Source: Sneathiella chungangensis (lineage in GTDB: Bacteria; Pseudomonadota; Alphaproteobacteria; Sneathiellales; Sneathiellaceae). Taken from it: a stretch of DNA of 64,000 bases. Shown here in pieces: positions 1,940 through 19,551 of this stretch. The first letter of the stretch is position 1; each line of letters opens with the position of its first letter. The position numbers were made by a program, and so were the translations under genes. The notes under the pieces are model-generated. The model did no database searches. It worked only from the letters and a program-made list of their open reading frames with translations, and was not told the origin of the DNA. The stretch is taken from positions 939,108-1,003,107 of the forward strand of contig NZ_WTVA01000015.1 of NCBI RefSeq assembly GCF_009882935.1. Reading direction: 5' to 3'.

Positions 1940-3631
1940 ATGCCGCAATCGCTGAAAGCAAGAACGGGCGGGCAGATACTCGCCGACCAACTCGCGTTGC
2001 AGGGGGTGGACACGGTCTTTTGCGTGCCCGGCGAGAGCTATCTCGCGGTGATCGACGGGCTGTACAATCACGCCAACAGCATCCGCATGATCAATACCCG
2101 CCACGAAGGCGGCGCCGCCAATATGGCGGAGGCCTATGGCAAGCTGACCGGCCGGCCCGGCATCTGCATGGTGACGCGCGGCCCCGGCGCGACCAACGCC
2201 TCGATCGGCCTGCATACCGCGTTTCAGGACAGCACGCCGATGATCCTTTTCGTTGGGCAGGTCGGGCGCGACGCGCTGGACCGGGAGGCGTTTCAGGAGA
2301 TGGACTACCGCCGCGTTTTCGGCGAAATGGCGAAATGGGTGGCCGAAATCGACGATACCCGCCGCATCCCCGAATATGTCAGCCGTGCCTTTTATACCGC
2401 GCTGTCGGGCCGGCCGGGTCCGGTGGTGCTGGCCCTGCCCGAGGATATGCTGGCCGAGGTGGCGGAGGTGGCCGATATCGCGCATCCGGCGACGGCGCCC
2501 GCCATTGCCCCCGCCGCCGCCGATATGATGGCGCTGGAGGCGCATCTTGCCGCGGCGGAGCGACCCTTCATGATCGTCGGCGGCGCGACCTGGACCGAAG
2601 CGGCGGTCCGGGATATCCAGACATTTGCCGAAAACCACGGAATTCCCGTCGGGGCGTCGCTCCGTTCGCAGGATTGCTTCGATAACCGCCATCCCAACTA
2701 TGCGGGCGATGTCGGGATCGGCCTCAATCCCAAGCTTGCGGCGCGCATAAAGGAGAGCGACCTTCTCCTCGTCGTCGGGCCGCGCCTTGGCGAAATGACG
2801 ACGCAGGGCTATACGCTGCTAGAGGTGCCGAACCCGGCGATGACGCTGGTGCATGTGCATCCGGGCGTCTCCGAACTCGGCCGGGTGTATCTCCCCGATC
2901 TTGCCATCAATGCCAGGATGCCGGAATTTGCCGCGGCGGCATGCGCCATGGCGCCAGGCGCGGCAAAGGCGCGGGAGGGCTGGGTTCTGAATGCCCGCAA
3001 CGACTATCTCGCGCGGATCAAACCGACCGAGGTGCCAGGGCCCGTCAATCTTGGCAAGATCGTCGCCTATCTCAATGAAACCCTGCCCGAGGATGCGATC
3101 GTCACCGCCGGAGCGGGCAATTACGCGGTCTGGGCGCACCGTTTTTTCCAGCACAAGAAATTCCGCACGCAGCTCGCCCCGACCAGCGGCGCGATGGGCT
3201 ACAGCGTGCCCGCCGCGATCAGCGCCAAGATCACCGAACCCGCCCGCACGGTCGTCAGCTTCAACGGCGATGGCTGTTTCATGATGCTGGGGCAGGAGCT
3301 GGCGACGGCGATGCAGTTCAATGCGCCGGTCATCTTCATCATCGTCAATAACGGCATGCTCGGCACCATCCGCATGCATCAGGAGCGCGGATTTCCCGAA
3401 CGCGTTCATGCCACGACGCTTGCCAATCCGGATTTTGCCGCGCTTGCGCGCGCCTATGGCGCATTCGGCGAAAAAGTCACCCGGACAGAGGATTTCGCGG
3501 AGGTTTTCAAGGCGGCCGAGGCCGCGAACCGGGCGGCGGTGATCGAGATCGTCGTCGATCCGGAAGCCCTGACGCCGGAGCAGAGCCTGTCGGCCGCCCG
3601 TGCGCAGGGAAATGCGGCAAAAGCATCCTAG
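1940..3631 (+). CDS. Thiamine-pyrophosphate-dependent acetolactate synthase-like enzyme
   Basis: 563-residue member of the TPP-dependent decarboxylase/acetolactate synthase family. The N-terminal PYR domain carries the activating glutamate in RHEGGAANMA (Glu56). A central domain covers about residues 190-330. The C-terminal PP domain has the TPP/Mg motif starting NGDG (residues 442-445) and ending with VNN about 26 residues later. It most resembles catalytic subunits of the IlvB family, but no small regulatory (IlvN) gene is next to it, so it may act on another 2-oxoacid (oxalyl-CoA decarboxylase, glyoxylate carboligase and sulfopyruvate decarboxylase share this fold). The substrate cannot be named from sequence alone. 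It sits 14 bp before the GST gene, so the two are probably cotranscribed. Confidence 0.8.
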   Translation: MPQSLKARTGGQILADQLALQGVDTVFCVPGESYLAVIDGLYNHANSIRMINTRHEGGAANMAEAYGKLTGRPGICMVTRGPGATNASIGLHTAFQDSTPMILFVGQVGRDALDREAFQEMDYRRVFGEMAKWVAEIDDTRRIPEYVSRAFYTALSGRPGPVVLALPEDMLAEVAEVADIAHPATAPAIAPAAADMMALEAHLAAAERPFMIVGGATWTEAAVRDIQTFAENHGIPVGASLRSQDCFDNRHPNYAGDVGIGLNPKLAARIKESDLLLVVGPRLGEMTTQGYTLLEVPNPAMTLVHVHPGVSELGRVYLPDLAINARMPEFAAAACAMAPGAAKAREGWVLNARNDYLARIKPTEVPGPVNLGKIVAYLNETLPEDAIVTAGAGNYAVWAHRFFQHKKFRTQLAPTSGAMGYSVPAAISAKITEPARTVVSFNGDGCFMMLGQELATAMQFNAPVIFIIVNNGMLGTIRMHQERGFPERVHATTLANPDFAALARAYGAFGEKVTRTEDFAEVFKAAEAANRAAVIEIVVDPEALTPEQSLSAARAQGNAAKAS

Positions 3632-4403: not shown

Positions 4404-7400
4404 ATGAACGGTTTATTCATTGGGGAAGGAACGCTTCTCGTTCAATGCGCGGAGGCATTCACGCGCGCGGGCGGCAAAATCGCCGGCATTCTAAGTCACG
4501 AACCGAGGGTTCGGGCCTGGGCGGAGGCGGAGGGCCTGCCGCTTTTCGGTGATCCCGGCGATGCCGGGCTGAACGACCTTGCCTATGATTATCTGTTCAG
4601 CGTCGTCAACCTGACGATCTTTCCGCAAGCCCTGCCCGTCCCGCCCCGCAAGTTTGCCGTGAATTTCTTCGATGGACCGCTGCCGAAATATACCGGCATC
4701 AATGTTACTTCCTGGGCGCTGATAAACGGCGAGACCTCGCATGCGGTCACCTGGCACGAGATGAAGGAAAGTCCCGATGCGGGACGGATTTTGAAATCCC
4801 GCCGCGTTGACATCGCGCCCGATGAAACCTCGATGAGCCTCAATGCGAAATGTTATGAGGCGGGGCTCGCCTCCTTCACCGAGCTGGTGGCGGAGCTCAA
4901 ATCCGACGCCGCCCGGCCGGTGGAGCAGGGGACGGAGAAAAACATCTACACCGCCGCCATGCGGCCCGCGCAGCTTGGCGCGCTGGATTTCACGAAACCC
5001 GCCGCGGACCTCGACCGGCTTGTCCGCGCGCTCGATTTCGGCGCCTATGCCAATCCGCTCGGCGCCGCGAAGCTGTGGACGGGCGCCGCCATCTCCCTCG
5101 TCGGTACGCTCGATATCCTTGACGGTCCGGCATCGGGGGCGCCCGGTCAGGTGATCGGCCTTGACGATGACAGCATCACCATTGCCGCCGCCGATCACAA
5201 TGTAAGGCTGGGCGGGTTCCGCTGCCTTAAGGGCGAGCCGCGCCATCCCAACGCCGTCGGGCTTCAGATAGGCGCCGTGCTGCCACCACTGCCCGCCATG
5301 CCGGATGATCTTCTCTCGGCCACCGCGAAGGCGGAAAATTACTGGCAGGACGCGCTTTCCAATGCGCAGCCGCTGCAATCGCCCTATCCGTCGAACCGGG
5401 ATACGGCCTCCGGCGCGGTTGCCGTGCCCCTCATGCTCGATCAACCGCTGGCGCTGGAGGTGGCGACCGCCGGTCTTCTTGTCTGGCATGCGCTGCTCAT
5501 GGGCGCGAAGTCGGTATCCTGCGGCATGGATTCAGGGGCCGAGACGCATCCCTTGATCGCCGAAAGCCAGCTTGTCACGCTCCCCCTTGCGGCCGAAAAG
5601 ACCGCCGCGGAGACGATTGACGCGGTATCGAGAATACAGGCGGACGGCCGCGCCGCCGGTCCGCGCAGCATCGATCTGATCGCGCGGTTGCCCGACATGG
5701 CCGCACGCGATGTCGCCCTGCGCGCGCTGAATGTCGCCGTGACGCCCCGCGACGGGGCCGATGCCGACCTTCTGGGGGATCGCAACCTCGTGCTCGCGCT
5801 GGGAGAGGGCCCGCGCCTGATCGCGAAAACCGGCCTTTACGCGCGGGACATGCTCGCCGCCATGGGCCGGGATCTCGCTTTCTTCCTCAATGCTTTTGCC
5901 GCCAAAAAAGAGACGGCGCTCAAAAACCTGCCGCTCACCGATCCGAACCAGAAACAGGCCGGGATGGATGCCATGGGCGTGGATTATCCGCGCGACAAGC
6001 GCATTCACGATGTCATCCGCGACCAGGTCGCCAAGACGCCGGACGCCATCGCGCTGAAGGCCGATGACGATGTGCTTACTTACGCGGAACTCGACAAACG
6101 CACCGATGCGCTTGCCGCCGCCCTTGCCGCGCGCGGCGCGGGACGGGGCGTCATCGTTGGATTATGCCTGGATCGGTCGACCGACCTAATTGTTTCCCTG
6201 CTCGCGATCCTGAAAACGGGGGCGGCCTATCTCCCGCTCGATCCGTCCTATCCGGCGGAGCGGGTTGCCTTCATGATCGAGGACAGCAACGCGCCGCTGA
6301 TCGTGGCGAGCCCGGCGACCGAATACAAGTTCCGCCTGGATGCGAAAAAGATTGTTTATCCGGACGCGACGGTTGCCGATGGCTTCACGGCGCCCGCCGG
6401 CGCGCCCTCCGATCTCGCCTATCTGATGTATACCTCCGGCTCGACCGGGATTCCGAAGGGCGTGATGCTGACCCATCAGAATATCGTCAATTTCTTCACC
6501 GGCACCGACCTGACCGTGCCGCATGAGGGCGAGGTCCGGCTGCTGGCCATCACCTCGGTTTCCTTCGATATTTCCGTGCTGGAGATTTTCTGGAGCCTGG
6601 CCCGCGGATTCACCGTGGTGCTGCAGACGGACGGCGTCTCCTCGACCCCGGTTCCGGGCTTCAGCCTGTTCTATTTTGCCTCCGAAGTCGCGGGCAGTGG
6701 GCCGGACGCCTATCGTCTCCTGTTGCAGGGCGCGAAATTCGCCGATGAGAACGGTTTTGAGGCGATCTGGACGCCGGAGCGGCATTTCCATGCCTTTGGC
6801 GGCCTCTATCCCAATCCGGCGGTGAGTTCCGCGGCCGTGGCCTCGCTCACCAAAAACGTCGATATTCGCGCCGGGTCCTGCGTGCTGCCGCTGCATCATC
6901 CGGTCCGTGTCGCCGAGGATTGGGCGCTGGTCGACAATATCTCGGCGGGCCGCGCCGGTATTGCCATCGCCAGCGGCTGGCAGCCCAACGATTTTGTCCT
7001 GCAGCCCGAAAATTTCGAACCCCGCAAGGAGGTCATGCTGGATGGCATTGATACGCTGCGCAAGCTCTGGCGGGGCGAAAGCGTCATGCTGCCCAACCAC
7101 AAGGGCGAGGAAATCGAGATTTCGACCCTGCCGCGCCCGGTGCGCGGCGAGATTCCGCTCTGGCTGACGGCGGCGGGGAACCCGGAAACCTTCGCGGCGG
7201 CGGCGGAAAAGGGCTGCTATGTGCTGACCCATCTGCTGGGCCAGAAATTCGAGGATGTGGCCGAGAAAATCCGTGCCTACCGCATGGCCTGGCGCGAGGC
7301 GGGGCATCCGGGCAACGGCAAGGTCTCCCTCATGCTCCATACGTTTGTCGGTGAGGATGAGGATCAGGTGCGCGAGACGGTGCGCGAACCGATGAAGGGA

Positions 7401-8912
7401 TATTTGAAAAGCTCGGTCGATCTCTTGCGCCGCGCCTCCTGGAGCTCCCCGACCTTCAAGCAGAAGGCCGACGCGACCGGTCTAACGCCGCAGGAAGTCT
7501 TTGAAAAACAGGAACTTACCGAGGAAGAGACCGAAGCGCTTCTCGATCATGCGTTCGAGCGCTATTACCAGACGAGCGGTCTGTTCGGCACGCCTGAGAG
7601 CTGTCAGGAGCTGGTGCGCGAGATTGCCCGCATGGGCGTTGACGAGATTGCCTGCCTCATCGATTTCGGCGTCGATACGGACCTGGTGCTCAAGCATCTC
7701 ACCTATATCAATGATCTCAAGAACAACCTGCTGGCCGAAGGCGGCGTTGCCCGTCAGGCCTCGGTCGCCGAGCAGATCGCCGAGCATGACATCACCCATT
7801 TCCAATGCACGCCGTCGATGGCCTCCTTCCTCGTCGCTGAGCAGGCAGGCCGGACGGCGCTCGGCAAGCTTGACGTGATGATGGTCGGCGGTGAAGGCTT
7901 CCCGCCGGAACTTGCGCGCAATCTCCGCGCCAATCTCAAGGGAACACTTCTCAATATGTATGGCACGACGGAAACCGCCGTCTGGTCGTCGGTCGCCAAT
8001 CTTGAAACGGTGGGCGAGACCATCCCGCTGGGCGAGGCGATTGCCAACACGATCTATTCCGTCCGCAACGAATTTGGTCAGGCGCTGCCGAGCGGGGTTG
8101 CCGGCGAGCTCTGGATCGGCGGCGATGGCGTTGCCGATGGCTACTGGAACCGCGAAGAACTGACGGCGGAACGGTTTTTGGACACGCCGGAAGGGCGCGT
8201 TTACCGGACCGGTGACCTTGTCCGTCATATGCCCGACGGCCGGCTTGAATTCCATGGCCGCATGGACAACCAGGTCAAGGTGCGCGGCCACCGGATCGAG
8301 CTTGGCGAGATCGAGGCGAAGCTCGGATCGCTCACGGAAGTGAAGGATGCCGCCGTGACCGTGTTCGAGACCGGCGACAGCGACAAGCGCCTCGTCGCCT
8401 TTGCGACCGTGGCGCCGGGGCACAAGATCGATCCGCAGGAGGTGCGCCGGAAACTCGGCGAGATGCTGCCCGAATTCATGACGCCCTCGCAGGTGGTCGT
8501 GCTCGATAAAATGCCCGAGACGCCGAACGGCAAGATCGACCGCAAGGCGCTGCCGAAACCGCAGGGGCAGGCGAGCGCGGCGGCCGCAACGGCGCAGAGC
8601 GATACCGAAGCGGCGATCGCCAAGATCTGGTGCGAGGCGCTGGGCCTCTCCGAGGTCGGCGTTACCGACAATTTCTTCGATCTCGGCGGGCATTCTCTCC
8701 TCGTGGTGCAGGTGCAGCGGCGGCTGAAGGAGCTGTTCGACAAGGAAGTCGCGATCACCGACATGTTCCGCTTCTCCACCATTCAGGCGCTGGCCCGACA
8801 TCTCGACGGCGGCGGCAAGGCGGAGGGGGAATCGACGGCGGCGATGCGCGGGGCGCAGCGGGCGGCGGCGCGCCGGGCGCGGATGACGCAAAGAACCGGG
8901 ACAACTGTATAG
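4404..8912 (+). CDS. Hybrid NRPS: formyltransferase-like / C-remnant / A with inserted luciferase-like monooxygenase / PCP
   Basis: 1502 residues. Domains in order: formyltransferase-like fold, N- and C-terminal parts (about 1-290); a condensation-like remnant starting AENYWQDALS (about 300-505) with no HHxxxDG motif; adenylation N-part (527-745) with A3 TSGSTGIPKG and A4 FDISVLE; an FMN-dependent luciferase-like monooxygenase (about 750-1105) with the hallmarks TPERHFHAFGG, LPLHHPVRVAE and ASGWQPNDF; adenylation C-part (1115-1385) with NMYGTTE, GELWIGG, YRTGDL and PNGKIDRKALP; and a carrier protein with LGGHSL, phosphopantetheine Ser1431. The monooxygenase matches the MupA/Atu3671 type (TIGR04020) known from natural-product enzymes. 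In the first domain the catalytic N-x-H of formyltransferases reads N87-F-F89, so formyl transfer is doubtful, although D125 is kept. It has no release domain; the PKS gene 77 bp downstream supplies the next module. The start is the only ATG that keeps the whole first fold; its Shine-Dalgarno sequence (AAGGA) is 13 bp away and weak. Confidence 0.9.
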   Translation: MNGLFIGEGTLLVQCAEAFTRAGGKIAGILSHEPRVRAWAEAEGLPLFGDPGDAGLNDLAYDYLFSVVNLTIFPQALPVPPRKFAVNFFDGPLPKYTGINVTSWALINGETSHAVTWHEMKESPDAGRILKSRRVDIAPDETSMSLNAKCYEAGLASFTELVAELKSDAARPVEQGTEKNIYTAAMRPAQLGALDFTKPAADLDRLVRALDFGAYANPLGAAKLWTGAAISLVGTLDILDGPASGAPGQVIGLDDDSITIAAADHNVRLGGFRCLKGEPRHPNAVGLQIGAVLPPLPAMPDDLLSATAKAENYWQDALSNAQPLQSPYPSNRDTASGAVAVPLMLDQPLALEVATAGLLVWHALLMGAKSVSCGMDSGAETHPLIAESQLVTLPLAAEKTAAETIDAVSRIQADGRAAGPRSIDLIARLPDMAARDVALRALNVAVTPRDGADADLLGDRNLVLALGEGPRLIAKTGLYARDMLAAMGRDLAFFLNAFAAKKETALKNLPLTDPNQKQAGMDAMGVDYPRDKRIHDVIRDQVAKTPDAIALKADDDVLTYAELDKRTDALAAALAARGAGRGVIVGLCLDRSTDLIVSLLAILKTGAAYLPLDPSYPAERVAFMIEDSNAPLIVASPATEYKFRLDAKKIVYPDATVADGFTAPAGAPSDLAYLMYTSGSTGIPKGVMLTHQNIVNFFTGTDLTVPHEGEVRLLAITSVSFDISVLEIFWSLARGFTVVLQTDGVSSTPVPGFSLFYFASEVAGSGPDAYRLLLQGAKFADENGFEAIWTPERHFHAFGGLYPNPAVSSAAVASLTKNVDIRAGSCVLPLHHPVRVAEDWALVDNISAGRAGIAIASGWQPNDFVLQPENFEPRKEVMLDGIDTLRKLWRGESVMLPNHKGEEIEISTLPRPVRGEIPLWLTAAGNPETFAAAAEKGCYVLTHLLGQKFEDVAEKIRAYRMAWREAGHPGNGKVSLMLHTFVGEDEDQVRETVREPMKGYLKSSVDLLRRASWSSPTFKQKADATGLTPQEVFEKQELTEEETEALLDHAFERYYQTSGLFGTPESCQELVREIARMGVDEIACLIDFGVDTDLVLKHLTYINDLKNNLLAEGGVARQASVAEQIAEHDITHFQCTPSMASFLVAEQAGRTALGKLDVMMVGGEGFPPELARNLRANLKGTLLNMYGTTETAVWSSVANLETVGETIPLGEAIANTIYSVRNEFGQALPSGVAGELWIGGDGVADGYWNREELTAERFLDTPEGRVYRTGDLVRHMPDGRLEFHGRMDNQVKVRGHRIELGEIEAKLGSLTEVKDAAVTVFETGDSDKRLVAFATVAPGHKIDPQEVRRKLGEMLPEFMTPSQVVVLDKMPETPNGKIDRKALPKPQGQASAAAATAQSDTEAAIAKIWCEALGLSEVGVTDNFFDLGGHSLLVVQVQRRLKELFDKEVAITDMFRFSTIQALARHLDGGGKAEGESTAAMRGAQRAAARRARMTQRTGTTV

Positions 8913-8989
8913 TAAACATGAGCCTTGGCAGGATATGATTTCTGTCAGGACGAGCGGCACCGCCGGTTGCGGTGGGGATAAGCGGGAAG

Positions 8990-11900
8990 ATGACAGACGG
9001 CGTAGAAGGACTTCAGGCTTCTGAAAAGATTGCCATCGTCGGCATGGCCGGACGGTTCCCGTCCGCGCGCACCGTCTCGCAGCTTTGGCACATGCTGGCG
9101 GGCGGGCGCATCGGCACGCGCTGGTTCACGGACGAGGAGATGCTGGCGAACGGCGTCAGCGCGACAGAGCTGGCCGACCCGAACTATGTGCGCGCGGCGA
9201 ATTATCTTTCCGATATGGAATGTTTCGATGCGGGCTTTTTCGGCTTTTCGCCGCGCGAAGCCTCCATCCTCGATCCGCAGCACCGCCATTTCCTTGAATG
9301 CGCCTGGGAGGCGCTGGAGGATGCCGGCCATATGCCCGAAAGTTTCGACGGGCGGATCGGCGTCTTTGCCGGCTCCGGCATGCAGGCCTATCTTCCGTTC
9401 AATCTGCTGACCAATCCCGACCTTGTCGCGGAAATCGGCATGTTCCTCTTGCGCCATACCGGTAATGACAAGGATTTCCTGACGACACGGCTGTCCTATC
9501 TGCTGAATTTGCAGGGGCCGTCGGTGGCGATCCAGACGGCCTGCTCGACCTCGCTCGTCGCCGTGCATCAGGCGGCGGCCAGCCTGCTCTCCATGGAGTG
9601 CGACATGGCGATTGCCGGCGGCGTCACCATCGAATTGCCGCATCGCCATGGCTATAAATTCGTTGAAGGGGAGATCCAGTCGCCCGATGGCCTCTGCCGC
9701 CCGTTTGATGATGACAGTGAGGGCACGGTGTTCGGCTCCGGCGCGGCGCTCGTCATCTTGCGTCGGCTCGAGGATGCGCTTGCCGATGGCGACGATATCA
9801 AGGCGGTGCTGATCGGTTCCGCCGTCAATAACGACGGCGCGCAGAAGGCGGGCTATCTCGCGCCCAGCGTCGACGGTCAGGCGGAAGCCGCGGCCGAGGC
9901 CCTCGCCATTGCGGGTGTGCCTGCGGAAACCGTAAGTTACGTCGAAGCCCATGGCACCGGCACGCCGGTCGGCGATCCGATCGAGCTGGCCGGTCTCGCG
10001 CAAGTGTACGGGGCCGGCGGCACCGGCTATTGCGGGATCGGCTCGGTCAAGAGCAATATCGGCCATCTCGACACGGCGGCGGGCGCCACCAGCCTGATCA
10101 AGGTGGTGGAGGCGCTGCGCCATGAGATGATCCCCGCCTCGCTTCACTACAAGACGCCGAACAGCCGCTTCGATATCGCCAACAGTCCTTTCTATGTGGT
10201 CGCCGAGAGCAAGCCCTGGCCGCGCGGGGATATTCCGCGCCGTGCCGCGATCAACTCGCTCGGTGTCGGCGGCACCAACGCCCATGCGATTGTCGAGGAG
10301 GCGCCACGGCGCCCCGATATGCCACGGGAGGAAAGCTGGCGGCTCTTCCCTTTCTCGGCGCGCAATCGAAACGCCCTCGATGGTCTTCAGGAGAAATGGC
10401 GCGATTTCGTTACATCGCCGGAGATGCCCGATCTTGCCGATGCCGCCTTTACCCTGCGGCATGGCCGCCGCGAATTTTCCGAGCGCCGGGTGATCGTTGC
10501 CCGGTCCCGGGACGATCTCAAGGCGGCGCTGTGGAACGAGGCGCCCGCCCATGTCGGCGAGGGGACCGCCGGAACCGCGAAGGCGGAGGTGGTCTTCATG
10601 TTCCCCGGCGGCGGGGCGCAATATCCCGGCGCCGGCGCGGGACTGTTAAGGAGTTCTGCGCCTTTTCGCGCCGCCGTCGATGAATGCTTCGCGCAGATGC
10701 CGGCGGATGCGCCTGCCGATCTTCGCGCCGTGATGTTCGATAAATGCCTCGAGGATGCGGATGCCCGCGCCAGGATGGAAAGGTCGGGCTATGCCATTCC
10801 GGCGTTGTTCATCCTTGAATATGCCTATGCCCGGATGTTCATGAGCTGGGGGATAGAGCCCGCCGCGGTTCTCGGCCATAGCGCCGGGGAATATGCGGGC
10901 GCCGTGATCGCCCGGGTGATGTCGGTTGCCGACGCGCTTAAAATCGTTGTCTGGCGCGGCAAGGTGATGGATGCCGCCGCCGCCGGCGCCATGAGCATCA
11001 TTCCCGCGCCGCGCGAAAAGGTGCTGGAGATGATCGGCGACAGCCTTGACATTGCGGCGCTGAATGCCCCCGATCTCTGTGTCGTGTCGGGGGAGGTCGC
11101 GCGAATCGACGCCCTGGAGAACGAGCTGAAGGGCACGGAATATGAGGCCACGCGGGTGCGCATCAATGTCGCCGCCCATAGCCGCATCCTCGATGACCAG
11201 CTTGATAACTTCCGCAACGGGATCCAGGGGATCCGCCTAAAGGATCCGGAGATTCCCTTTGTGTCGTCCCTGCGTGGGGACTGGCCGGAAAACGGGGATT
11301 TCTCGACCATCGACTATTGGGTCAGCCATTTGCGCCATACGGTTCTTTTCGCCGATGCGGTGGAAACCGTCCTCAAGAAGCCGGGGCAAATCCTGCTCGA
11401 GGTCGGGCCCGGCCAGACGCTGGGACCGCTCGCCGAGATGGGGCACGGAGAGAATGAACCGCGCGCCGTCCTTTCCTCTGGCCGCCCGCCGAAGGAGGCG
11501 GATGACGATATGGCGCGGGCGCTGCTCGCCGCGGGCCGGATCTGGGCGGCAGGGGGCGCGCTTGACTGGGAAAAACTGCCGGGCGCCGGCGGGCGGCGGG
11601 TTTCGCTGCCGACCTATGCCTTCGCGCGCGAACGCCACTGGATCGAACCGGGGATGGGCCTCGTCGCCGATACCGAAACGGCCATCGCCGAGGGCGCCAT
11701 CCGCCTGACGCGGCACGATAATCCCGATGACTGGTATGTCACGAAAAAATGGGTGGTTGCGCCCGTCCCGCCGGCGGAAATGCGCCATGGCGGCAGCTGG
11801 CTGCTCTTCCATGGCGGCGATCCGGTCTCGGACGCCCTCGCCGCGGCGCTTGCGGAGCGGCGGGAGACCCTGGTCATAGTCCGTCCCGGCGATCATTTCA

Positions 11901-14900
11901 CCCGCGACGGGGATGAATACCGCCTCGCCCCGGACGTGCCGGAGGATTACGAGGCGCTCTTTGCCGAGCTTGGTGAGATCCCGGCGCAGATCCTGAACGG
12001 CTGGCCCATGGCGTCGGCGGCGGACGGTCAGACGGGTTTGTTTGACGCCGGTTTCTGCCTCGCCCGCGCCATCCAGTCGGCGGACCCGTCCGGGGATATC
12101 CGCCTCAGCTTTATCGGCAGCGGCGCCTTCTCGGTGAACGGAGAACCGGTCCTGCATCCGGCGCTCAGCACGCTGATCGGGCCGGTCCGGGTCGCGCCGC
12201 GCGAAATTCCGGGGCTGCATGGTCAATATATCGATCTGGAGGCGACCGAAGATCCGGGCTGGGCGGCGAAAACCATTCTCGATGAGCATGACGGCGCGAG
12301 CGCCGATGACTGCATCGCCTTCCGCGCCCGTCAACGCTATGCGCAGAAGCTGGAACCCCTACCGGTCACGGCGACGGAGGTGCTTCCGAAGCGGGTGAAG
12401 GAGGCCGGGCGCTACGTGATCACCGGCGGCGTCGGCGGCATCGGGCTCGAGCTCGCGCGTTATCTTGGCACCACGGCCCGGGCGCGCATTGCGCTCATCG
12501 GCCGATCGCGGTTCCCCGGTGGCGGTGACTGGCCTGTCGTGCTCGCCAAATCCCCGAACAGCCGCACTGCCCATGCCATCCGGATCCTGCAGGAGATCGA
12601 GGCGGCGGGCGGAGAGGTCCTGCTGTTAAGCGCCGATGTGACCAACAAGGCATCGCTCGGCAAGGCCCTTGAAACGGCGCGGGCGCAATTTGGCGGCATC
12701 GACGGCGCCTTCCACGGGGCCGGCATCATGGATGACGCGCCGATGCTGGGCAAGAGCCTTGACGATGCCCATAATGTCCTGGCGCCCAAGGTGACGGGCG
12801 GCGCCAATCTCGCGGCGCTGCTGCCCGATGGCAGTCTTGATTTCTTTGCCGTCTTCTCCTCGACTTCGGTCATTACCGCCCCGCCCGGCCAGGTCGATTA
12901 TGTGGCGGCGAACAGCTATCTGGAAAGCCTCGCGGCCTCGCGCACCGATGGTCTTGCGATTTCCTGGGGCGTCTGGCGCGATGTCGGCATGGCAGCGCGC
13001 GCCTATCGCAATTTGGAAGACAGCGCGGCAGGTCCGCATCCATTGCTCGGCGCCCCGGAAACAGAGAGCAACGGCGCAATCTCCTTCACCTCCTATTACG
13101 ATCCGGCGGCGCTCTGGGTGCTGAGCGAGCATGTGGTCGGCGGCGTGCCGGTGCTGCCCGGCACCGCCTATATCGAGATTGCCCATGCGGCGATGGAGGC
13201 GGCGGCTGCAGGCAGAAAATGGGAACTCCAGTCGCTCTCCCTCTTCAGCCCGATGATCTTCCCCGACGGGACGCGCATGCGTGTCGTCGTGACCTTGACG
13301 CCGGATGAGCGCGGCTATGAGTTTCAGGTCAGCAGCAGCCCCTCGCCGGAGGCGCCGCTTGTCGAGCATTGCCGCGCGCAGATCGTTTTCAAACGCCTGA
13401 CCGACCGTAAGGTCCCGCGCGAGCTGCAACTGACGTCGGCCCTTGCGGTTTCCGACAACAGCGGTCAGGATTCGCAAGCCGACCTGATCGATTTCGGCCC
13501 GCGCTGGGACAATATCGGCGAGATCCGGTGCGGCAGGAAGGAAATCGAGGCGGATTTCGCGCTTGCCGATGCCTTTCTCGCGGATCTTGACGATTATGCC
13601 GCGCATCCGGGCCTGACCGATACCGCGGCGACGATCGGGCTCAATTTGCTGAGCGATGTCGGGACGCAGGGCGCCTTCTATGCGCCGATGTCTATCGACC
13701 GGCTGCGCATCCTTGCGCCGCTGCCATCGCGGTTCCGGACCCGCGCCCGCCTGGTCGCGGAGACGCCCGGCCGCTACGCAAGTTTTGATGTCCTCTTCAT
13801 GGATGACCAGGGCACGCCGCTGATCATCATGGAAGGATTTGCGCTCAGCCGCGTCGAAGGAACCTCGTTCGAGCAGGGCAGCTCCCCGGCGCAGCTTGTT
13901 GATGTCATGATCGCCCAGGGGATCGCCGCCGCCGATGCCCCGGCGGTGTTCAGCCGGATGCTCAATTCCGACGCCCGCGCGATGGTGATCTCGCCGACCG
14001 CGATGGCGGATATCGCCCGGGAAATGGCGCGGATCGGGGCTCACCGCCGGAAGAAGGACAGCGCGAAGGCGGCGGAGGGCGCCGGTGCCGGCACGGTCTA
14101 TGCCAATGCGGTGGAGGAGAAAATCGCCGAATTCTGGTCGGACCTTCTTGGCGTTGGCCAGCCCGAGCCGGATGCCGATTTCTTCGATCTGGGCGGCCAT
14201 TCACTGGCGGCGGTGCGCTTGTTCGCGAAAATACGCAAGGAATATGCGACGGATTTGCCGCTCGCCACGCTGTTCCAGGCGCCGACCTTGCGGCTTCTCT
14301 CCGACATGGTGATCAAGAAGGGGAATATCGAGGTCGCGGCAACGGCGGAGATGGCCGCGGCGGAGACGCCCGCGGACGCCGACGGCTGGTCGCCGCTGGT
14401 TCGGATCAAGGCCGGCGCCGCCGATGTGAAGCCGCTCTATCTTGTCCATGGCGCGGGCGGGAATGTCCTTAATTTCCGGTCCCTGTCCGGCTATCTCGAC
14501 CCCCGGGTGCCGTTTTATGCGCTGCGCGCGCTCGGCTCGGACGGGGAGGCGGAAATCCATGAATCCATTGAGGAAATGGCGACTTGCTATGTCGCCGCCA
14601 TTCTGAAGAACCAGCCCGAGGGGCCCTATCACCTCGCCGGTTATTCGGGCGGCGGCGTAATCGCCTTCGAAATGGCGCAGCAGCTGCGAAAGGCGGGCCA
14701 TGAGGTCGGGAACCTCATCTTTTTCGATACCCTCGCCCCCGATCCGGAGCCGGTAACGCTTAATCTGCTCGAGAAACTCTGGACCGCCCGGCACTGGAGC
14801 CTCGGTTTTGCGCTGCGCTGGCCGCTGCGCAAATGGCGGAGCCTGGCCGCGAGACGCGAGATGGCGCAGATTGCCGAGCTTCTGGCAAAAGGCGAACAGC

Positions 14901-15175
14901 TGCCGGACGAGCTGGTGGGCCAGCGGATGACGCAGGCCTATCTGTCGGCGGAAAACCGCTACCGCCCGGAGGATTATCCGGCGGATGTCCTATTGTTCAA
15001 GGGTCGGCAGGCCAGCGTCGAATTCCTGCGGGCCGGCCAGCATCTGGGCTGGGATAAATTCGTTTCGGGCAATATCGAGGTGATGGTTTTCAACTGCGAT
15101 CATTTCAATATGATGATCGACCCGACGATCAGTGAAATCGGCAAGATCCTGAACGAGTTGCTGCTCAACCGTTGA
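8990..15175 (+). CDS. Type I polyketide synthase, KS-AT-KR-DH-ACP-TE
   Basis: 2061 residues from the ATG at 8990 (a GTG at 8972 is an in-frame alternative). Ketosynthase about 10-440 with Cys185 in TACSTS and both His motifs (EAHGTGTP, KSNIGHL). Acyltransferase about 535-850 with Ser631 in GHSAGE and the Arg of VVWRGK that contacts the extender carboxylate; the VAAH motif is not clearly malonyl or methylmalonyl. Ketoreductase after a pseudo-KR stretch, TGGVGGIG and Tyr1304 in VDYVAAN, with MDD at the LDD position suggesting B-type. Dehydratase after, not before, the KR: HxxxGxxxxP at His1381 and Asp1544 in HPGLTD. Carrier protein Ser1738 in LGGHSL. Thioesterase Ser1886 in GYSGGG with late His in CDHFNMM. 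All catalytic residues look intact. It should add one reduced and dehydrated two-carbon unit to the NRPS-bound aminoacyl group and release it. Confidence 0.93.
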   Translation: MTDGVEGLQASEKIAIVGMAGRFPSARTVSQLWHMLAGGRIGTRWFTDEEMLANGVSATELADPNYVRAANYLSDMECFDAGFFGFSPREASILDPQHRHFLECAWEALEDAGHMPESFDGRIGVFAGSGMQAYLPFNLLTNPDLVAEIGMFLLRHTGNDKDFLTTRLSYLLNLQGPSVAIQTACSTSLVAVHQAAASLLSMECDMAIAGGVTIELPHRHGYKFVEGEIQSPDGLCRPFDDDSEGTVFGSGAALVILRRLEDALADGDDIKAVLIGSAVNNDGAQKAGYLAPSVDGQAEAAAEALAIAGVPAETVSYVEAHGTGTPVGDPIELAGLAQVYGAGGTGYCGIGSVKSNIGHLDTAAGATSLIKVVEALRHEMIPASLHYKTPNSRFDIANSPFYVVAESKPWPRGDIPRRAAINSLGVGGTNAHAIVEEAPRRPDMPREESWRLFPFSARNRNALDGLQEKWRDFVTSPEMPDLADAAFTLRHGRREFSERRVIVARSRDDLKAALWNEAPAHVGEGTAGTAKAEVVFMFPGGGAQYPGAGAGLLRSSAPFRAAVDECFAQMPADAPADLRAVMFDKCLEDADARARMERSGYAIPALFILEYAYARMFMSWGIEPAAVLGHSAGEYAGAVIARVMSVADALKIVVWRGKVMDAAAAGAMSIIPAPREKVLEMIGDSLDIAALNAPDLCVVSGEVARIDALENELKGTEYEATRVRINVAAHSRILDDQLDNFRNGIQGIRLKDPEIPFVSSLRGDWPENGDFSTIDYWVSHLRHTVLFADAVETVLKKPGQILLEVGPGQTLGPLAEMGHGENEPRAVLSSGRPPKEADDDMARALLAAGRIWAAGGALDWEKLPGAGGRRVSLPTYAFARERHWIEPGMGLVADTETAIAEGAIRLTRHDNPDDWYVTKKWVVAPVPPAEMRHGGSWLLFHGGDPVSDALAAALAERRETLVIVRPGDHFTRDGDEYRLAPDVPEDYEALFAELGEIPAQILNGWPMASAADGQTGLFDAGFCLARAIQSADPSGDIRLSFIGSGAFSVNGEPVLHPALSTLIGPVRVAPREIPGLHGQYIDLEATEDPGWAAKTILDEHDGASADDCIAFRARQRYAQKLEPLPVTATEVLPKRVKEAGRYVITGGVGGIGLELARYLGTTARARIALIGRSRFPGGGDWPVVLAKSPNSRTAHAIRILQEIEAAGGEVLLLSADVTNKASLGKALETARAQFGGIDGAFHGAGIMDDAPMLGKSLDDAHNVLAPKVTGGANLAALLPDGSLDFFAVFSSTSVITAPPGQVDYVAANSYLESLAASRTDGLAISWGVWRDVGMAARAYRNLEDSAAGPHPLLGAPETESNGAISFTSYYDPAALWVLSEHVVGGVPVLPGTAYIEIAHAAMEAAAAGRKWELQSLSLFSPMIFPDGTRMRVVVTLTPDERGYEFQVSSSPSPEAPLVEHCRAQIVFKRLTDRKVPRELQLTSALAVSDNSGQDSQADLIDFGPRWDNIGEIRCGRKEIEADFALADAFLADLDDYAAHPGLTDTAATIGLNLLSDVGTQGAFYAPMSIDRLRILAPLPSRFRTRARLVAETPGRYASFDVLFMDDQGTPLIIMEGFALSRVEGTSFEQGSSPAQLVDVMIAQGIAAADAPAVFSRMLNSDARAMVISPTAMADIAREMARIGAHRRKKDSAKAAEGAGAGTVYANAVEEKIAEFWSDLLGVGQPEPDADFFDLGGHSLAAVRLFAKIRKEYATDLPLATLFQAPTLRLLSDMVIKKGNIEVAATAEMAAAETPADADGWSPLVRIKAGAADVKPLYLVHGAGGNVLNFRSLSGYLDPRVPFYALRALGSDGEAEIHESIEEMATCYVAAILKNQPEGPYHLAGYSGGGVIAFEMAQQLRKAGHEVGNLIFFDTLAPDPEPVTLNLLEKLWTARHWSLGFALRWPLRKWRSLAARREMAQIAELLAKGEQLPDELVGQRMTQAYLSAENRYRPEDYPADVLLFKGRQASVEFLRAGQHLGWDKFVSGNIEVMVFNCDHFNMMIDPTISEIGKILNELLLNR

Positions 15176-16007
15176 TCCAGCCACAGGGGACAATTTTCCC
15201 ATAAAATTCAAGACTTTCCTCGGGCAGGCCCTGTTGCCAGAGATTGACGTGACTGCCGGCGGGATAGGCGATGAACCGCTTCGGTTCGGACGCCGCGTCG
15301 AACAGGCGGCGGGCGGAGGCAATGCGGATGGCGCTGTCCTGTTCCCCATGAAACATGAGCAGCGGCGCCTCGATGCTCGCGATCCGGTCGATGGAATCGT
15401 ACCGCTCCTTCGTCATGACGGCACAGAAGGGCAGGCCGAAATATCTGTCGGTGAAATAATCGCAAAAGCGGGCATAGGCGGCCTCCAGCGTGAGCGCGGC
15501 GACGGGCCGGTCGGCGGCCAGCCGCACGGCAATCCCGCTTCCCAGGCTATAGCCATAGGCAATCCGCCGGTTGGCGGGAATTTCCGCCGCCATCAGGTCG
15601 TCGAGGCGGTCATAGAGCGCGCGGGCATCGCCGGCGAAGGCCTCCTCCGACGGGGTGCCGGGCTTGCCGCTCGATCCCCGGTAGACGAGCGCCGCGACCC
15701 CGAAGCCCTTTTCAAGCAGGGGTTTGAGCCGCTGGACCGATGGGCCGATGGAGGTGAAATTCCCCATGAAATAGAGGATCACCGGCGCATCGCCCACGGG
15801 CGGGCGGATCCAGGCGGAAATCTCCGCGCCGTCTTCGGAGGGAAATGTCACGTCGCGGACGCCGGCAAGGTCATAGGCCTCGGGGCCGTCCGTCGCCTGA
15901 TCGAAGCGGTAGATCGATCCGTAGAAAAGATAGAGCCCCACGGCCCCCGCGAGCAGGGCGAGGAGGATCACGACGCCCAAAATTATCATCCCGTTCTGGA
16001 TCGACAT
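15165..16007 (-). CDS. Membrane-anchored alpha/beta hydrolase
   Basis: 280 residues. One N-terminal membrane segment (about residues 6-30) is followed by an alpha/beta hydrolase domain with the nucleophile motif YGYSLGSG, the acid strand MFHGEQDSAI and the final His in GSHVNLW. This is the BEM46/FrsA-like arrangement of small serine hydrolases facing the periplasm; the substrate is unknown. The start at 16007 is favoured over longer options because AAGGGG lies 7 bp upstream of it. It converges with the PKS gene, the two stops overlapping by 11 bp, so it is not part of that cluster by direction. A promoter and three palindromes lie upstream. Confidence 0.8.
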   Translation of the reverse strand: MSIQNGMIILGVVILLALLAGAVGLYLFYGSIYRFDQATDGPEAYDLAGVRDVTFPSEDGAEISAWIRPPVGDAPVILYFMGNFTSIGPSVQRLKPLLEKGFGVAALVYRGSSGKPGTPSEEAFAGDARALYDRLDDLMAAEIPANRRIAYGYSLGSGIAVRLAADRPVAALTLEAAYARFCDYFTDRYFGLPFCAVMTKERYDSIDRIASIEAPLLMFHGEQDSAIRIASARRLFDAASEPKRFIAYPAGSHVNLWQQGLPEESLEFYGKIVPCGWING

Positions 16008-16047
16008 GGATTTCCCCTTTTCAGATGCGCCCCTGACCCGCCCGGCA

Positions 16048-16076
16048 ATTGTGCGAAGCCTGCCGGGGCCGGTCAA
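16048..16076 (-). promoter_or_regulatory. Candidate promoter of the alpha/beta hydrolase gene
   Basis: Read on the minus strand, TTGACC (16076-16071) and CACAAT (16053-16048) are separated by 17 bp, about 40 bp before the start codon at 16007. The -35 box matches the consensus at five of six positions and the -10 at four of six. Confidence 0.5.
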
Positions 16077-16098
16077 GGCCTATTGCGGCGGTAATGCC

Positions 16099-16182
16099 AC
16101 CATTATGGTTGCCGTTTCGCGGCGAAAGACTGCCGATGGCACCATTATGGTGCCGGATTTACCCTTCGTTAACCATAATGGT
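16099..16182. promoter_or_regulatory. Three copies of the palindrome ACCATWATGGT
   Basis: Perfect 5+1+5 palindromes sit at 16099-16109, 16141-16151 and 16172-16182. The middle copy extends to a 17-bp palindrome, GGCACCATTATGGTGCC (16138-16154). Centres are 42 and 31 bp apart, close to four and three helical turns, so all three would face the same side of the DNA. They lie just upstream of the candidate hydrolase promoter, with centres near -63, -105 and -136 relative to an expected start at about 16041. This looks like an operator array for an activator or a cooperative repressor. I do not recognise the regulator. Confidence 0.55.
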
Positions 16183-16191
16183 GGTTGACCG

Positions 16192-17280
16192 TTAGCGGTC
16201 GCGGGCGGCGAAATAGGCCTCCCGTCCGACCCGGGACCAGCTTTGCGAGAGATCGAGCGCCGCGCGGTAGGATTTGAGAATTTCCTCCGCCATCGCATCG
16301 CCGGCGACGAACCCGTCGATCAGCGCCGGCGTCAGTTCCTTCGCCTTGCTGATGAGATCGGCGGGGAATTCCCGCACCTCGACCTTTTTGTTGGCGACCA
16401 GATCGGCCAGCGCCCGGGCATTTTCCCACTCGGCCTCGGTCAGGCCGACCGCATTCTCCGCCTGGCAGGCATTGGCGACGACGGCCTTGAGGTCATCGTC
16501 CAGCGAGTCGTAGGCCTGACGGTTGACGAGGCATTCCGCCGTCCCGTTCGGCTTGTTGAAGGACGGCCAGTAGTAATAGGGCGCGGCCTTGTAGAATCCG
16601 AAGGCCCGATCACTCCAGGGTCCGAGGAATTCGACCGCGTCCACCAGCCCGCTTTGCAGGCCGGGATAAATCTCCCCCGGTGGCAGCAGGACCGCGGTCG
16701 CGCCAAGTTTCTCATACAGATCGCCGCCGAGACCGGCGCTGCGGATCTTGATCCCGCGCAGATCATCGAGGGACTTGATCTCCCGTTTGAACCAGCCGCC
16801 CATCTGCATGCCCGAATTACCGGCCATAAAGGGTTTTATATCAAAGGGTTGATAGAGTTTGTCCCAAAGCTCCTGACCGCCGCCCTGGTTGATCCAGGCC
16901 ATATGCTCGAGCGAGGTAAGGCCGAAGGGAACGGTGGTGAAGAAGACGCTGGCCTTCGCCTTGCCCTGCCAGAAGAAGGAAGCGGTATGGCCAAGCTCCG
17001 CCGTGCCGCCGCCAACGGCGCCGAACACCTCCAGCGCGGGAACCAGCTCCCCCGCCGCATACAACTTCACGGTCAGCTTGCCGCCGCTCATCAGGGTGAT
17101 CCGGTCGGCAAGGCGTTGCGCCGTGACGCCGACGCCCGGCGCGCCCTTCGGCCAGGAGGTGACCATCTTCCATTCCCGCGCGCCGCTCGCGATGGCCGGG
17201 GTCGCCGCGAAACCGGCGCCCAGTGCACCGGCACCGCCGGCGGCAAGAAATTTTCGACGGGTGAGGGATGTCTTACTCAT
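16192..17280 (-). CDS. TRAP transporter substrate-binding protein, DctP/TakP-like, Tat-exported
   Basis: 362 residues. The N-terminus has a twin-arginine signal (SLTRRKFLAAGGAGALGAG) with cleavage likely near residue 32. The rest is a DctP-family periplasmic binding protein. The segment GLVDAVEFLGPWSDRAFGFYKAAPYYYWP resembles TakP-type proteins that bind 2-oxoacids. No dctQ or dctM membrane genes are adjacent, so it is an orphan binding protein here. Its start overlaps the thiM stop by 8 bp, placing it in the TPP-riboswitch-controlled transcript, which suggests a link to thiamine or a thiamine precursor; the sequence alone does not prove this. Confidence 0.85.
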   Translation of the reverse strand: MSKTSLTRRKFLAAGGAGALGAGFAATPAIASGAREWKMVTSWPKGAPGVGVTAQRLADRITLMSGGKLTVKLYAAGELVPALEVFGAVGGGTAELGHTASFFWQGKAKASVFFTTVPFGLTSLEHMAWINQGGGQELWDKLYQPFDIKPFMAGNSGMQMGGWFKREIKSLDDLRGIKIRSAGLGGDLYEKLGATAVLLPPGEIYPGLQSGLVDAVEFLGPWSDRAFGFYKAAPYYYWPSFNKPNGTAECLVNRQAYDSLDDDLKAVVANACQAENAVGLTEAEWENARALADLVANKKVEVREFPADLISKAKELTPALIDGFVAGDAMAEEILKSYRAALDLSQSWSRVGREAYFAARDR

Positions 17281-18013
17281 TTTCCTTCCTTTCCTGGAGG
17301 CTGGATTGGCTAATCTGGTATATCTTATCGAGGATCAGGGCGGCGAAGCTGCCGGGGCCGGTCGCCTCGGCGGCGGCTTTTTCTCCGGCCTCCCCCAGAA
17401 GGGAAAGGCCCGCCGCGACCGCCTGCAAGCGTTCCTCCGCCGGGACGATGGCGAGACAGGCACCGAGCAGGGCCGTCCCCGCGCAGCCGATGCCGGTGAC
17501 CAGGCTCATCAGTTCGTGGCCACCCTCGAGCGTGATTTCGGTGCTGCCGTCGGTGACGATGTCGGTCACGCCGGTCATGGCAACGATGGCGCCGGTTTTT
17601 CGCGCAAGATCGGCGGGATTACCGCCGAGAAGGCCAATTTCCCCCCTATTCCCGCGGATCAGCGCCGGGCCAAGCGAGAGAAGCTCCATCGCATAGGCGG
17701 CGCGTGGCTCGGACCGGTCGATAAATACGGGATCGAATATCCAGGGAATGTTATGGTCTCGCGCGGCGCCGATGGCGGCCTTGATCGAGTTTTTCAGATC
17801 CCCGTCCAGGGTCCCGATATTGACGAGGAGGGCGTTGGCGCTTTTCGTGAAATGCGCCACCTCCGCAATATCCGAGGACATGGAGGGAATGGCGCCGACG
17901 GCGAGCAGCATATTGGCGGTCAGCGCCTGCACCACCGTATTGGTAAGGCAATGCACCGCCGGGCGGCGGCTGTTCATCTCCTGCAACAGATGTCTAGATA
18001 TGTCTTCGCGCAT
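17273..18013 (-). CDS. thiM: Hydroxyethylthiazole kinase ThiM
   Basis: 246 residues. Phosphorylates 4-methyl-5-(2-hydroxyethyl)thiazole in the salvage branch of thiamine synthesis. Family features include PAVHCLTNTVVQALTANMLLA near the N-terminus, GNRGEI, MTGVTDIVTDG, and the catalytic region VTGIGCAGTALLGA, where the Cys matches the conserved ThiM Cys. The start at 18013 is chosen because AAGGA lies 7-8 bp upstream and it gives the usual family length; an upstream in-frame ATG at 18061 would run close to the riboswitch. Controlled by the TPP riboswitch in its leader. No thiD or thiE is in the window. Confidence 0.93.
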   Translation of the reverse strand: MREDISRHLLQEMNSRRPAVHCLTNTVVQALTANMLLAVGAIPSMSSDIAEVAHFTKSANALLVNIGTLDGDLKNSIKAAIGAARDHNIPWIFDPVFIDRSEPRAAYAMELLSLGPALIRGNRGEIGLLGGNPADLARKTGAIVAMTGVTDIVTDGSTEITLEGGHELMSLVTGIGCAGTALLGACLAIVPAEERLQAVAAGLSLLGEAGEKAAAEATGPGSFAALILDKIYQISQSSLQERKENE

Positions 18014-18078
18014 GCCGTCATCCTTCCATTCGTTCGTTTGAGGGAAGGGCGCGATGTGCATATACTTCGATGAACCGG

Positions 18079-18165
18079 CCTCAATTCCCTCCGCCGGTGC
18101 TAACCGGATCAGGTTCTGCGGGTCGGCGATCTTGCCTCTCAGCCTCCAAGGGCACCCCGATGAGT
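18079..18165 (-). ncRNA. TPP riboswitch (THI element)
   Basis: On the minus strand the leader contains the hallmark blocks of the thi-box in order: GGGGTGCCC, GGCTGAGA, then ACCTGATCCGGTTAGCACC and GGCGGAGGGA. These form the pyrimidine- and pyrophosphate-sensing arms of the TPP aptamer. It ends about 65 bases before the thiM start, so the expression platform, most likely hiding the ribosome-binding site or a terminator, lies between. Binding of TPP should switch off thiM and the overlapping TRAP binding-protein gene. Confidence 0.95.
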
Positions 18166-18172
18166 GACTGCC

Positions 18173-18200
18173 ATATTAGGACCATTCGATGGATTTGCAA
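18173..18200 (-). promoter_or_regulatory. Promoter of the riboswitch-thiM transcript
   Basis: On the minus strand, TTGCAA (18200-18195) and TAATAT (18178-18173) are 16 bp apart, directly upstream of the riboswitch. Transcription would start near the first bases of the aptamer. The remaining bases between this promoter and the MFS gene (18201-18339) are A/T-richer and hold no gene that I can see. Confidence 0.55.
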
Positions 18201-18282
18201 CGGGAAATATCATGTCGAAAAAACTAAGCCGAAACATGAGGAAATCTCGTGTGACAACCTGTCCGGCTTTATGCTACTTTTC

Positions 18283-18288
18283 TATAAT
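18283..18288 (+). promoter_or_regulatory. Consensus -10 box ahead of the MFS gene
   Basis: A perfect TATAAT at 18283-18288 lies 52 bp before the GTG start of the MFS gene. No good -35 hexamer is seen at normal spacing, so an activator or an extended -10 would be needed. Confidence 0.35.
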
Positions 18289-18339
18289 AATAAAGCGCGA
18301 AGAAGGGCTTCAGGCCCCGCCCAATAGCAGGAATATCTC

Positions 18340-19551
18340 GTGACCCAGCAGCAGGTTCGGTTTACTTTTCTCAACTTCGGTCACTTCGTCGACCATCTGT
18401 TCATGCTGATTTTCGCAAAAGCGGCCTTCAGCGCCGGCCTCGCCTTCGGCCTTGCGGAAGACGGCGCCTATGCGGAAATGCTGCCCTATGGCATCCCGTC
18501 GCTGGTCCTGTTTGGCGCCGGGGCGCCGCTTGCCGCCTATCTGGCGGATAAATGGAACCGCGTCGGTATGATGACGGTCTTCTTCGTCGGGATCGGCATC
18601 TCGGCCATCGCCACGGGGTTCGCGCAATCCCCGCTGCAGATAGCGGTCGGCCTTGCCGCGATCGGCCTGTTTGCCTCGATCTATCATCCGGTCGGCATCG
18701 CCATGGTCGTCCAGGGCGGCGGCCGCGTCGGCTGGCGCGTCGGGATGAACGGCGTCTGGGGCAATATGGGCGTGGCCGCCGCGCCGTTGATCACCGGCTT
18801 TATCCTTGCCGGCTATAACTGGCAGCTTGCCTTCATCCTGCCGGGGATTGTCGCCATTCTGGCCGGTATCGCCTTTCTTGTCTTCGTGCGCCGGGGCGGC
18901 GGCGCCGCGCCGAGTTACGCGACCGGTGAGAAAGAGATTGTCGGCTTCATGCCCGGCTGGAAACGGGCGCTGGTCGCGATCTCGCTGGTCACCTCGGCCG
19001 GCGGATTTGTCTTCGGCACCATGACCTTCGTCATCCCCCGCATGTTCGAGGTGAGCCTGCCGGACGTCACCACGAATATCGCCACCACGGGGCTGCTGGC
19101 GGCGCTGGTGTATGCCATTGCCGCCTTTGCGCAGCTCGTGGTCGGTCGTTTGATTGACACCTACCGGATCAAGCCGGTGCTCTTTGCGATTGCGCTCGCG
19201 CAGCCGGTGCTGATCGGCATCATGGCGTTGCAGACAAACTATGCCTTGTTTGCCGCGACGCTGGCCGCCATGGCCTTCGTCTTTGGCCAGATCCCGATCA
19301 CCGATACGGTGATCGCCCGCTATGTGCCGGATGTCTGGCGGACGAAAGTCATGTCGGTCAAGCTGATGCTGAATCTGGTGATCGGCGCCCTGTCGCTCAT
19401 GGCGGCCCGCTTTATCCTCGAATCCGGCGCCGGTTTTCAGGGGGTGATCACCGTCGTTGCCATTGTCGCGGTATTTATTTCGCTGGCCGCGCTGATCCTC
19501 CCCGGCCGGGTGCGCCCATCGCCACAGACGACGCTGTCCCCGGCGGAGTAG
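18340..19551 (+). CDS. MFS transporter
   Basis: 403 residues with about twelve hydrophobic segments. The layout, with a charged loop ADKWNRVG between segments 2 and 3 and a long central loop around residue 195, is that of the major facilitator superfamily; the HPVGIAMV stretch in the fourth segment recalls the fosmidomycin-resistance-like group. The start is GTG, with AGGA 8-10 bp upstream. The substrate is unknown. It is transcribed away from the thiM operon, and nothing in the sequence shows that it transports thiamine compounds. Confidence 0.8.
   Translation: MTQQQVRFTFLNFGHFVDHLFMLIFAKAAFSAGLAFGLAEDGAYAEMLPYGIPSLVLFGAGAPLAAYLADKWNRVGMMTVFFVGIGISAIATGFAQSPLQIAVGLAAIGLFASIYHPVGIAMVVQGGGRVGWRVGMNGVWGNMGVAAAPLITGFILAGYNWQLAFILPGIVAILAGIAFLVFVRRGGGAAPSYATGEKEIVGFMPGWKRALVAISLVTSAGGFVFGTMTFVIPRMFEVSLPDVTTNIATTGLLAALVYAIAAFAQLVVGRLIDTYRIKPVLFAIALAQPVLIGIMALQTNYALFAATLAAMAFVFGQIPITDTVIARYVPDVWRTKVMSVKLMLNLVIGALSLMAARFILESGAGFQGVITVVAIVAVFISLAALILPGRVRPSPQTTLSPAE

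Follow-up and report, generated by a model that had tools for sequence, protein, structure and literature searches.

The locus described here raises the question of what a monooxygenase does when it lies inside the adenylation (A) domain that opens an assembly line, and what that line might make. The window, by which we mean the whole stretch of 64,000 nucleotides of Sneathiella chungangensis DNA that was analysed, carries an open reading frame at 4404..8912 (+) that encodes 1502 aa with zero internal stops. The protein reads as an NRPS initiation protein, in which a formyltransferase-like (FT) domain and the C-terminal half of a condensation domain (C-lobe) precede an A domain with a nested monooxygenase (MOx) and a carrier (T/PCP) domain.

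An oxygenase nested in one adenylation domain

The first-pass annotation had placed a luciferase-like monooxygenase between motifs A4 and A5 of a single A domain, and both the HMM boundaries and the motif positions confirmed this. Part one of the A domain (A1-A4) occupies 5991..6638 (+), with A4 (FDISVLE) at 6564-6584, and part two (A5-A10), which includes AMP-binding_C, occupies 7752..8558 (+), with A5 (NMYGTTE) at 7953-7973. Pfam split AMP-binding into two stretches of the protein (best at aa 539-742) and placed Bac_luciferase at 764-1081, AMP-binding_C at 1302-1377 and PP-binding at 1404-1467; the NCBIfam amino-acid adenylation model TIGR01733 also matched in two stretches (best at 1117-1318). 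The insert, a predicted FMN-dependent enzyme at 6660..7721 (+), matched TIGR04020 (NCBIfam) at aa 753-1106 with 504.7 bits over 341/341 model positions, far over the curated cut-off of 244.45 bits, which upholds the suggested MupA/Atu3671-type membership. The limits drawn previously (6651-7718) agree with the HMM span to within 9 bases, and the oxygenase falls within, not outside, the A domain. The carrier domain at 8607..8807 (+), recognized by Pfam PP-binding and an LGGHSL motif, is adjacent to the MOx-bearing A domain, as had been supposed.

An AlphaFold model of residues 520-1390, built on a 56-row alignment, reached pLDDT 88.9 and pTM 0.63; because pTM was only 0.63, the relative placement of the domains is left open. 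The A-domain fold was retained, since the model aligned with the A domain 6ea3_B across the insert (VIA Z 54.3, rmsd 1.5, 396 residues) over the model range 4-781, i.e., on either side of MOx, and the earlier statement that the A domain resumes cleanly after the insert holds. The MOx fold resembles luciferase and the PuwE OX domain (6ket; TMt 0.92, 48% identity), which is titled as the OX domain of a hybrid PKS/NRPS and is also the closest solved structure by sequence (E 3e-111). The PERHF motif of MOx is invariant in the 56 rows. An assembly artefact or frameshift was excluded, since the same open frame occurs in other Sneathiella genomes: the NRPS frames of 10 Sneathiella relatives and of the window are without stop, and one is cut by a contig end. 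The anatomy and fold of the module are thereby established.

The wider family, the front end and the partner genes

A scan of GTDB species genomes for the window MOx returned at least 581 relatives, of which the best 80 by similarity were kept and joined by 18 further loci; many of these records are metagenome bins, and because the 80 were chosen by similarity to the window MOx, family counts lean towards the window's own type. Within this set (best 80 of at least 581, plus 18), 93 of 99 full-length MOx domains lie in the order A part, MOx, A part, and among the embedded modules an A4-like motif precedes MOx in 91/93 and an A5-like motif follows it in 91/93; a strict A3 pattern matched 27/93 and was left out of the results. 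The A-domain code of the window is D-I-L-Q-M-G-M-V-W, and a DILQ-type code was found in 88/93 embedded modules of the same set, window included. We take codes of the DILQ..IW/VW form to denote glycine, and the window A domain is predicted to be glycine-type. These counts include five near-duplicate loci, which are excluded from the 88-module, 61-locus and tree counts below.

An N-acylating domain stands upstream in 82 of 88 de-duplicated embedded modules (FT in 60, C in 22), among the best 80 of at least 581 relatives and 18 further loci. Concerning the six without one, four begin at a contig edge, and L050 has an FT in a separate upstream frame. In the same set, a KS protein lies within 2.5 kb in 46/61 FT-type loci and is exactly KS-AT-KR-DH-T-TE in 33 of these 46; some of the 15 loci without a near KS are cut by the contig, and L055, L058, L060 and L095 have over 7 kb of sequence on each side. 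By record titles, and among the matches listed, FT types occur in at least 11 phyla (Pseudomonadota, Chloroflexota, Actinomycetota, Omnitrophota, Acidobacteriota, Cyanobacteriota, Rhodothermota, Nitrospinota, Myxococcota, Planctomycetota and Gemmatimonadota), and 11/385 genomes of an Alphaproteobacteria sample had a TIGR04020 match at E 1e-60. A quick MOx tree placed the window in a Sneathiella clade near FT types of Ramlibacter/Comamonadaceae and Hyphomonas. Drawn from the best 80 of at least 581 and the further loci, it gathered 60/61 FT rows in one group of 74 rows (SH-aLRT 94), to which two free-standing enzymes and five C-type rows also belong; on this tree the FT type clusters without forming a single clade (10 changes, of which starred branches force at least 4).

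Several architectures in the family stand apart. Extra length between A8 and A10 held a methyltransferase in 4/4 tested modules, so that the A domain is doubly interrupted in L099, L073, L089 and L094 (MOx at A4-A5, methyltransferase at A8-A10); L099 is also FT-fronted. Another insertion site was seen in L029 (ORF 4961-18643), with MOx between the A core and the C-terminal subdomain. L027 and L028, from alphaproteobacterial genomes of 1.5 Mb, place MOx immediately before a KS, with no AT detected in the PKS stretch; a MOx-KS PKS is unusual in genomes of this size.

At the front of the window protein, the FT domain (aa 1-290, 4404..5273, +) was matched by Pfam Formyl_trans_N/C at aa 62-270 and has an ArnA/Fmt fold: a model of aa 1-529 (pLDDT 93.3, pTM 0.90) aligned with ArnA 4wkg_A over residues 1-293 (Z 26.7). 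The following segment (aa ~298-513, 5295..5942, +) resembled the RzmA starter C domain (7c1p/7c1s), aligning with residues ~180-431 of 7c1p (Z 19.0, rmsd 2.8, 189 residues); the Foldseek list for this model was filled by FT folds, and the C-lobe reading is therefore based on the VIA rows. In the model, the HHxxxDG lobe of the C domain is missing, as if the FT stood in its place. The spacing between FT and A is alike in 65 FT modules (median 265 aa) and a C-lobe is detectable in 49 of them, among the best 80 of at least 581 relatives and 18 further loci.

We take the FT catalytic triad to be Asn-His-Asp, as in E. coli Fmt. The window has His replaced by Phe (motif NFFDGP at 4662-4679), whereas relatives outside Sneathiella have NFHDGP. 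The triad is N-F-D in all 11 Sneathiella sequences (window and 10 relatives), compared with N-H-D in 53 and N-H-Y in one of 54 rows from outside the genus (best 80 of at least 581, plus 18). Judged from these alignments, the presumed catalytic His has been lost in the Sneathiella lineage only, among the rows compared, while the FT domain is kept. The FT (mean identity in the genus 0.73) and C-lobe (0.62) are the fastest-diverging parts, and the best conserved are MOx (0.91, minimum 0.87), the second A part (0.91) and T (0.94); among the matches listed, all MOx domains 91-93% identical to that of the window are in Sneathiella records. Since the His is absent from the FT in 11/11 sequences and the two front domains have diverged more quickly than the other parts, N-formylation in Sneathiella is doubtful. 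LgrA of linear gramicidin, the best whole-protein PDB match, likewise has an N-terminal FT ahead of A-T, but has neither MOx nor a C-lobe between F and A (its A domain starts near residue 190), and the Asn-His-Asp of LgrA-type formylating initiation gives way to N-F-D in the window. A review of nested and auxiliary domains counts only three NRP products as F-domain-formylated (PMC8949500).

Downstream of the NRPS lies a type I PKS of 2067 aa (8972..15175, +) with the order KS-AT-KR-DH-T-TE, assigned by Pfam and motif search, in which the expected catalytic motifs of KS, AT, KR, DH, ACP and TE are present; the AT motif is AAHS, and the AT substrate is not certain. Convergent with it is an alpha/beta hydrolase gene (15165..16076, -), whose start is uncertain and whose relatives align from about residue 16-23 onward only. 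The NRPS (TIGR04020 over cut-off) is present in 11/24 Sneathiella genomes. Ten of these 11 gave a PKS match at E 1e-200, and the remaining one (L039) has a PKS fragment; the hydrolase follows the NRPS exactly, occurring in those 11/24 genomes and no others, with some copies cut or having a stop. The chance of this NRPS/hydrolase co-occurrence is 4e-7 under random assignment with shared ancestry ignored. In the genome G007 the three genes lie at another genomic place and are still together, which indicates that the NRPS, PKS and hydrolase form the unit. In Aliiroseovarius, too, the NRPS/PKS pair has a homologous hydrolase (41.6%) next to it.

Among the other neighbours, the TPP enzyme (1940-3631) was rejected as a pathway gene, since it occurs in 20/24 Sneathiella genomes and lies away from the pair in G007. 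The GST, ThiM, DctP and MFS genes probably do not belong to the pathway either, as none of them is beside the pair in that genome (locus L031). Further along the window, a separate cluster for a glycan or glycolipid spans 37405-45716, where a minus-strand ABC exporter neighbours two GT4 genes, a GT28-like gene, a gene for a His-phosphatase and two genes of unknown function. The window also has three genes for class III cyclases, at 23741-26191, 51879-53234 (-) and 61482-63197 (-); one has CHASE2 and one a 2Fe-2S domain.

Placement in exopolysaccharide clusters

Plasmid records with a match numbered 736, from which 15 regions were taken; 13 of these are FT-type, and they include near-duplicates (two from Paracoccus and two from Shinella). 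Eleven of the 13 FT-type relatives lie within exopolysaccharide (EPS) clusters, 8 by annotation and 3 by homology to an annotated Shinella cluster. The annotated clusters are on plasmids of Ruegeria, Aminobacter, Paracoccus, Parasedimentitalea and Shinella, and the Ruegeria conchae plasmid additionally carries rfbABCD; rhamnose operons on roseobacter plasmids are described as serving attachment (PMC11481893). In several EPS-linked plasmid loci a GT2 gene lies between or adjoins the PKS and NRPS. A Deinococcus relative without detected FT is also in an EPS cluster, and a C-type relative from Nostoc is not. The two remaining FT-type relatives, which have the highest identities to the window among the plasmid relatives and share its NRPS-then-PKS order, stand outside: the Aliiroseovarius one (51.7%) is not in an EPS cluster, and the Methylobacterium one (47.6%) gave zero matches to nine EPS queries.

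The sugar transferase family PF02397 was examined in 41 genomes, comprising 34 of the 80 loci (those on long contigs, from the best 80 of at least 581) and 7 others, with distances to MOx read by eye. It lay within 12 kb of MOx in 10/41 genomes, against 0.6 expected, and in 17/41, against 1.8 expected, when the limit was set at 35 kb; in 24/41 it was absent within 35 kb; the C-type loci among them (L056, L085 and L091) all fall in the 35-kb count and none in the 12-kb count. In the window genome, the sole PF02397 match is 160 kb from MOx, which excludes a local EPS cluster, and the glycosyltransferase genes of the window (40196-44392) lie 25 kb downstream with unrelated genes intervening. The EPS link is thus real for part of the family but not for the window's branch. 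It could still be argued that the product is not a free small molecule but a substituent, or an acyl unit of lipid-like kind, destined for a surface polysaccharide, as the EPS placement of 11/13 FT-type plasmid relatives, the excess of PF02397 near MOx and the GT2 genes beside PKS and NRPS would suggest. This we regard as unlikely, given the distances of PF02397 and the glycosyltransferase genes in Sneathiella, its failure in Aliiroseovarius and Methylobacterium, the plasmid relatives closest to the window, and the 24/41 genomes with no PF02397 within 35 kb.

Proposed chemistry of the starter and its meaning

The MOx of MtaG occupies the same A4-A5 site as that of the window. In MtaG/MelG of myxothiazol and melithiazol, and in crz-like A2, MOx lies inside a glycine A domain and hydroxylation of C-alpha of the carrier-bound glycine is described or proposed (PMC11342130). 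The first-pass idea that the oxygenase acts on the carrier-bound amino acid would agree with that account; related MupA/Atu3671 domains are known, as was said, but calling them poorly understood in this position is less apt, given the published glycine C-alpha hydroxylation. The MtaG and crz modules are described as receiving an upstream chain via a C domain (PMC11342130), whereas the window encodes a first module, with FT and half C, that feeds a PKS. The MtaG type is terminal, with TE release and nitrogen loss; the protein of the window ends with its T domain, and a KS protein is encoded next. Nested auxiliary enzymes are also found in other interrupted A domains, such as those with a methyltransferase (5wmm) or the indigoidine Ox at a8-a9, which are other enzymes at other insertion sites, and secondary domains of this kind, monooxygenases included, have been reviewed (PMC8949500). 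A luciferase-like monooxygenase has further been proposed for an alpha-hydroxylation in palmerolide biosynthesis (PMC8739492).

Considering the above, our preferred reading, tentative but close to probable, is that the NRPS protein is the starter unit of a two-protein hybrid line, with glycine loading, C-alpha hydroxylation with the nitrogen kept, and one PKS extension. We infer each chemical step, and the product, as follows. The A domain would load glycine onto its own T domain, and the FT at the front would N-formylate it in most relatives, doubtfully so in Sneathiella. The oxygenase, between the A parts and beside the carrier, would then hydroxylate C-alpha of the carrier-bound (N-acyl)glycine, by family precedent with reduced FMN supplied in trans. 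The usual outcome would be an N-acyl-alpha-hydroxyglycyl starter, nitrogen loss at myxothiazol-type ends being a special case. The oxidised C2 unit may pass to the KS of the PKS and be extended once with whichever acyl unit the AT selects; reduction by KR and dehydration by DH would give an enoyl C4 unit, which TE would release or transfer, and the dedicated alpha/beta hydrolase might have as its substrate either the product or stalled chains. The PKS partner in Aliiroseovarius (L120, 18453-27737) has an additional C-A-T before TE, so that the C4 unit there may be joined to an amino acid.

The nitrogen would stay, because nearly all such modules acylate it first, some add a methyltransferase and many feed a KS, although the MtaG-type precedent, in which hydroxylated glycine loses its nitrogen, speaks against retention. 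Oxidative C-N cleavage of the MtaG/MelG type, by which hydroxylated glycine would collapse, nitrogen leave and a glyoxylyl-thioester go to the KS, is the outcome described for myxothiazol and melithiazol and proposed for crz-like clusters (PMC11342130), and the dead-looking FT of Sneathiella, leaving a free amine, would favour it. We nevertheless hold it to be rather unlikely here, as the MtaG module is terminal whereas the chains of the window and of elongation-type L087, L103 and L112 continue to or through modules, and nitrogen-acting FT, C and methyltransferase domains would be pointless if the nitrogen were lost. MOx might instead oxidise the nitrogen, giving an N-hydroxy-formamide or else an oxime of glycine of the kind known from the lobatamide and necroxime starters; the oxygenases of those starters belong to another flavin class. 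The logic is similar, in that the necroxime oxime is described as arising from an oxygenase-modified glycine primer before PKS extension (PMC7318616), but there the line is trans-AT and the product an oxime. N-oxidation appears improbable, since no lobatamide or necroxime oxygenase was found among the solved MOx relatives at E 1e-15 or E 0.001, formylation preceding N-oxidation is not an oxime route, and the TIGR04020 precedent is carbon oxidation. That MOx serves this line only as an inert structural insertion is scarcely credible, as it is among the best-conserved domains in the genus and keeps PERHF in all 56 rows.

The insertion of MOx is not itself new, since nesting in glycine A domains has been published for myxothiazol/melithiazol and corallorazine-like clusters. 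In our literature search, no publication turned up that describes the pairing of FT-(half C)-A[MOx]-T with a small PKS, how widely it is distributed or its location in EPS clusters, and none named a product of the line. Such insertions are usually discussed product by product, and here one starter and one small PKS recur across phyla. In a broader reading, which is speculative and which we think doubtful, the pair would be a widespread undescribed class of mini-line making an oxidised glycine-derived C4 acyl unit for surface glycans, whose Sneathiella branch moved out of the EPS cluster, acquired a hydrolase of its own and gave up formylation. The family poses the testable question of how glycine is altered by a nested oxygenase if the chain has to continue, not end, and the FT that Sneathiella keeps without its catalytic His offers a natural test of whether formylation matters. 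It likewise makes testable whether assembly lines decorate bacterial surface glycans; if the glycan reading is true, this would be NRPS/PKS machinery serving polysaccharide biosynthesis.
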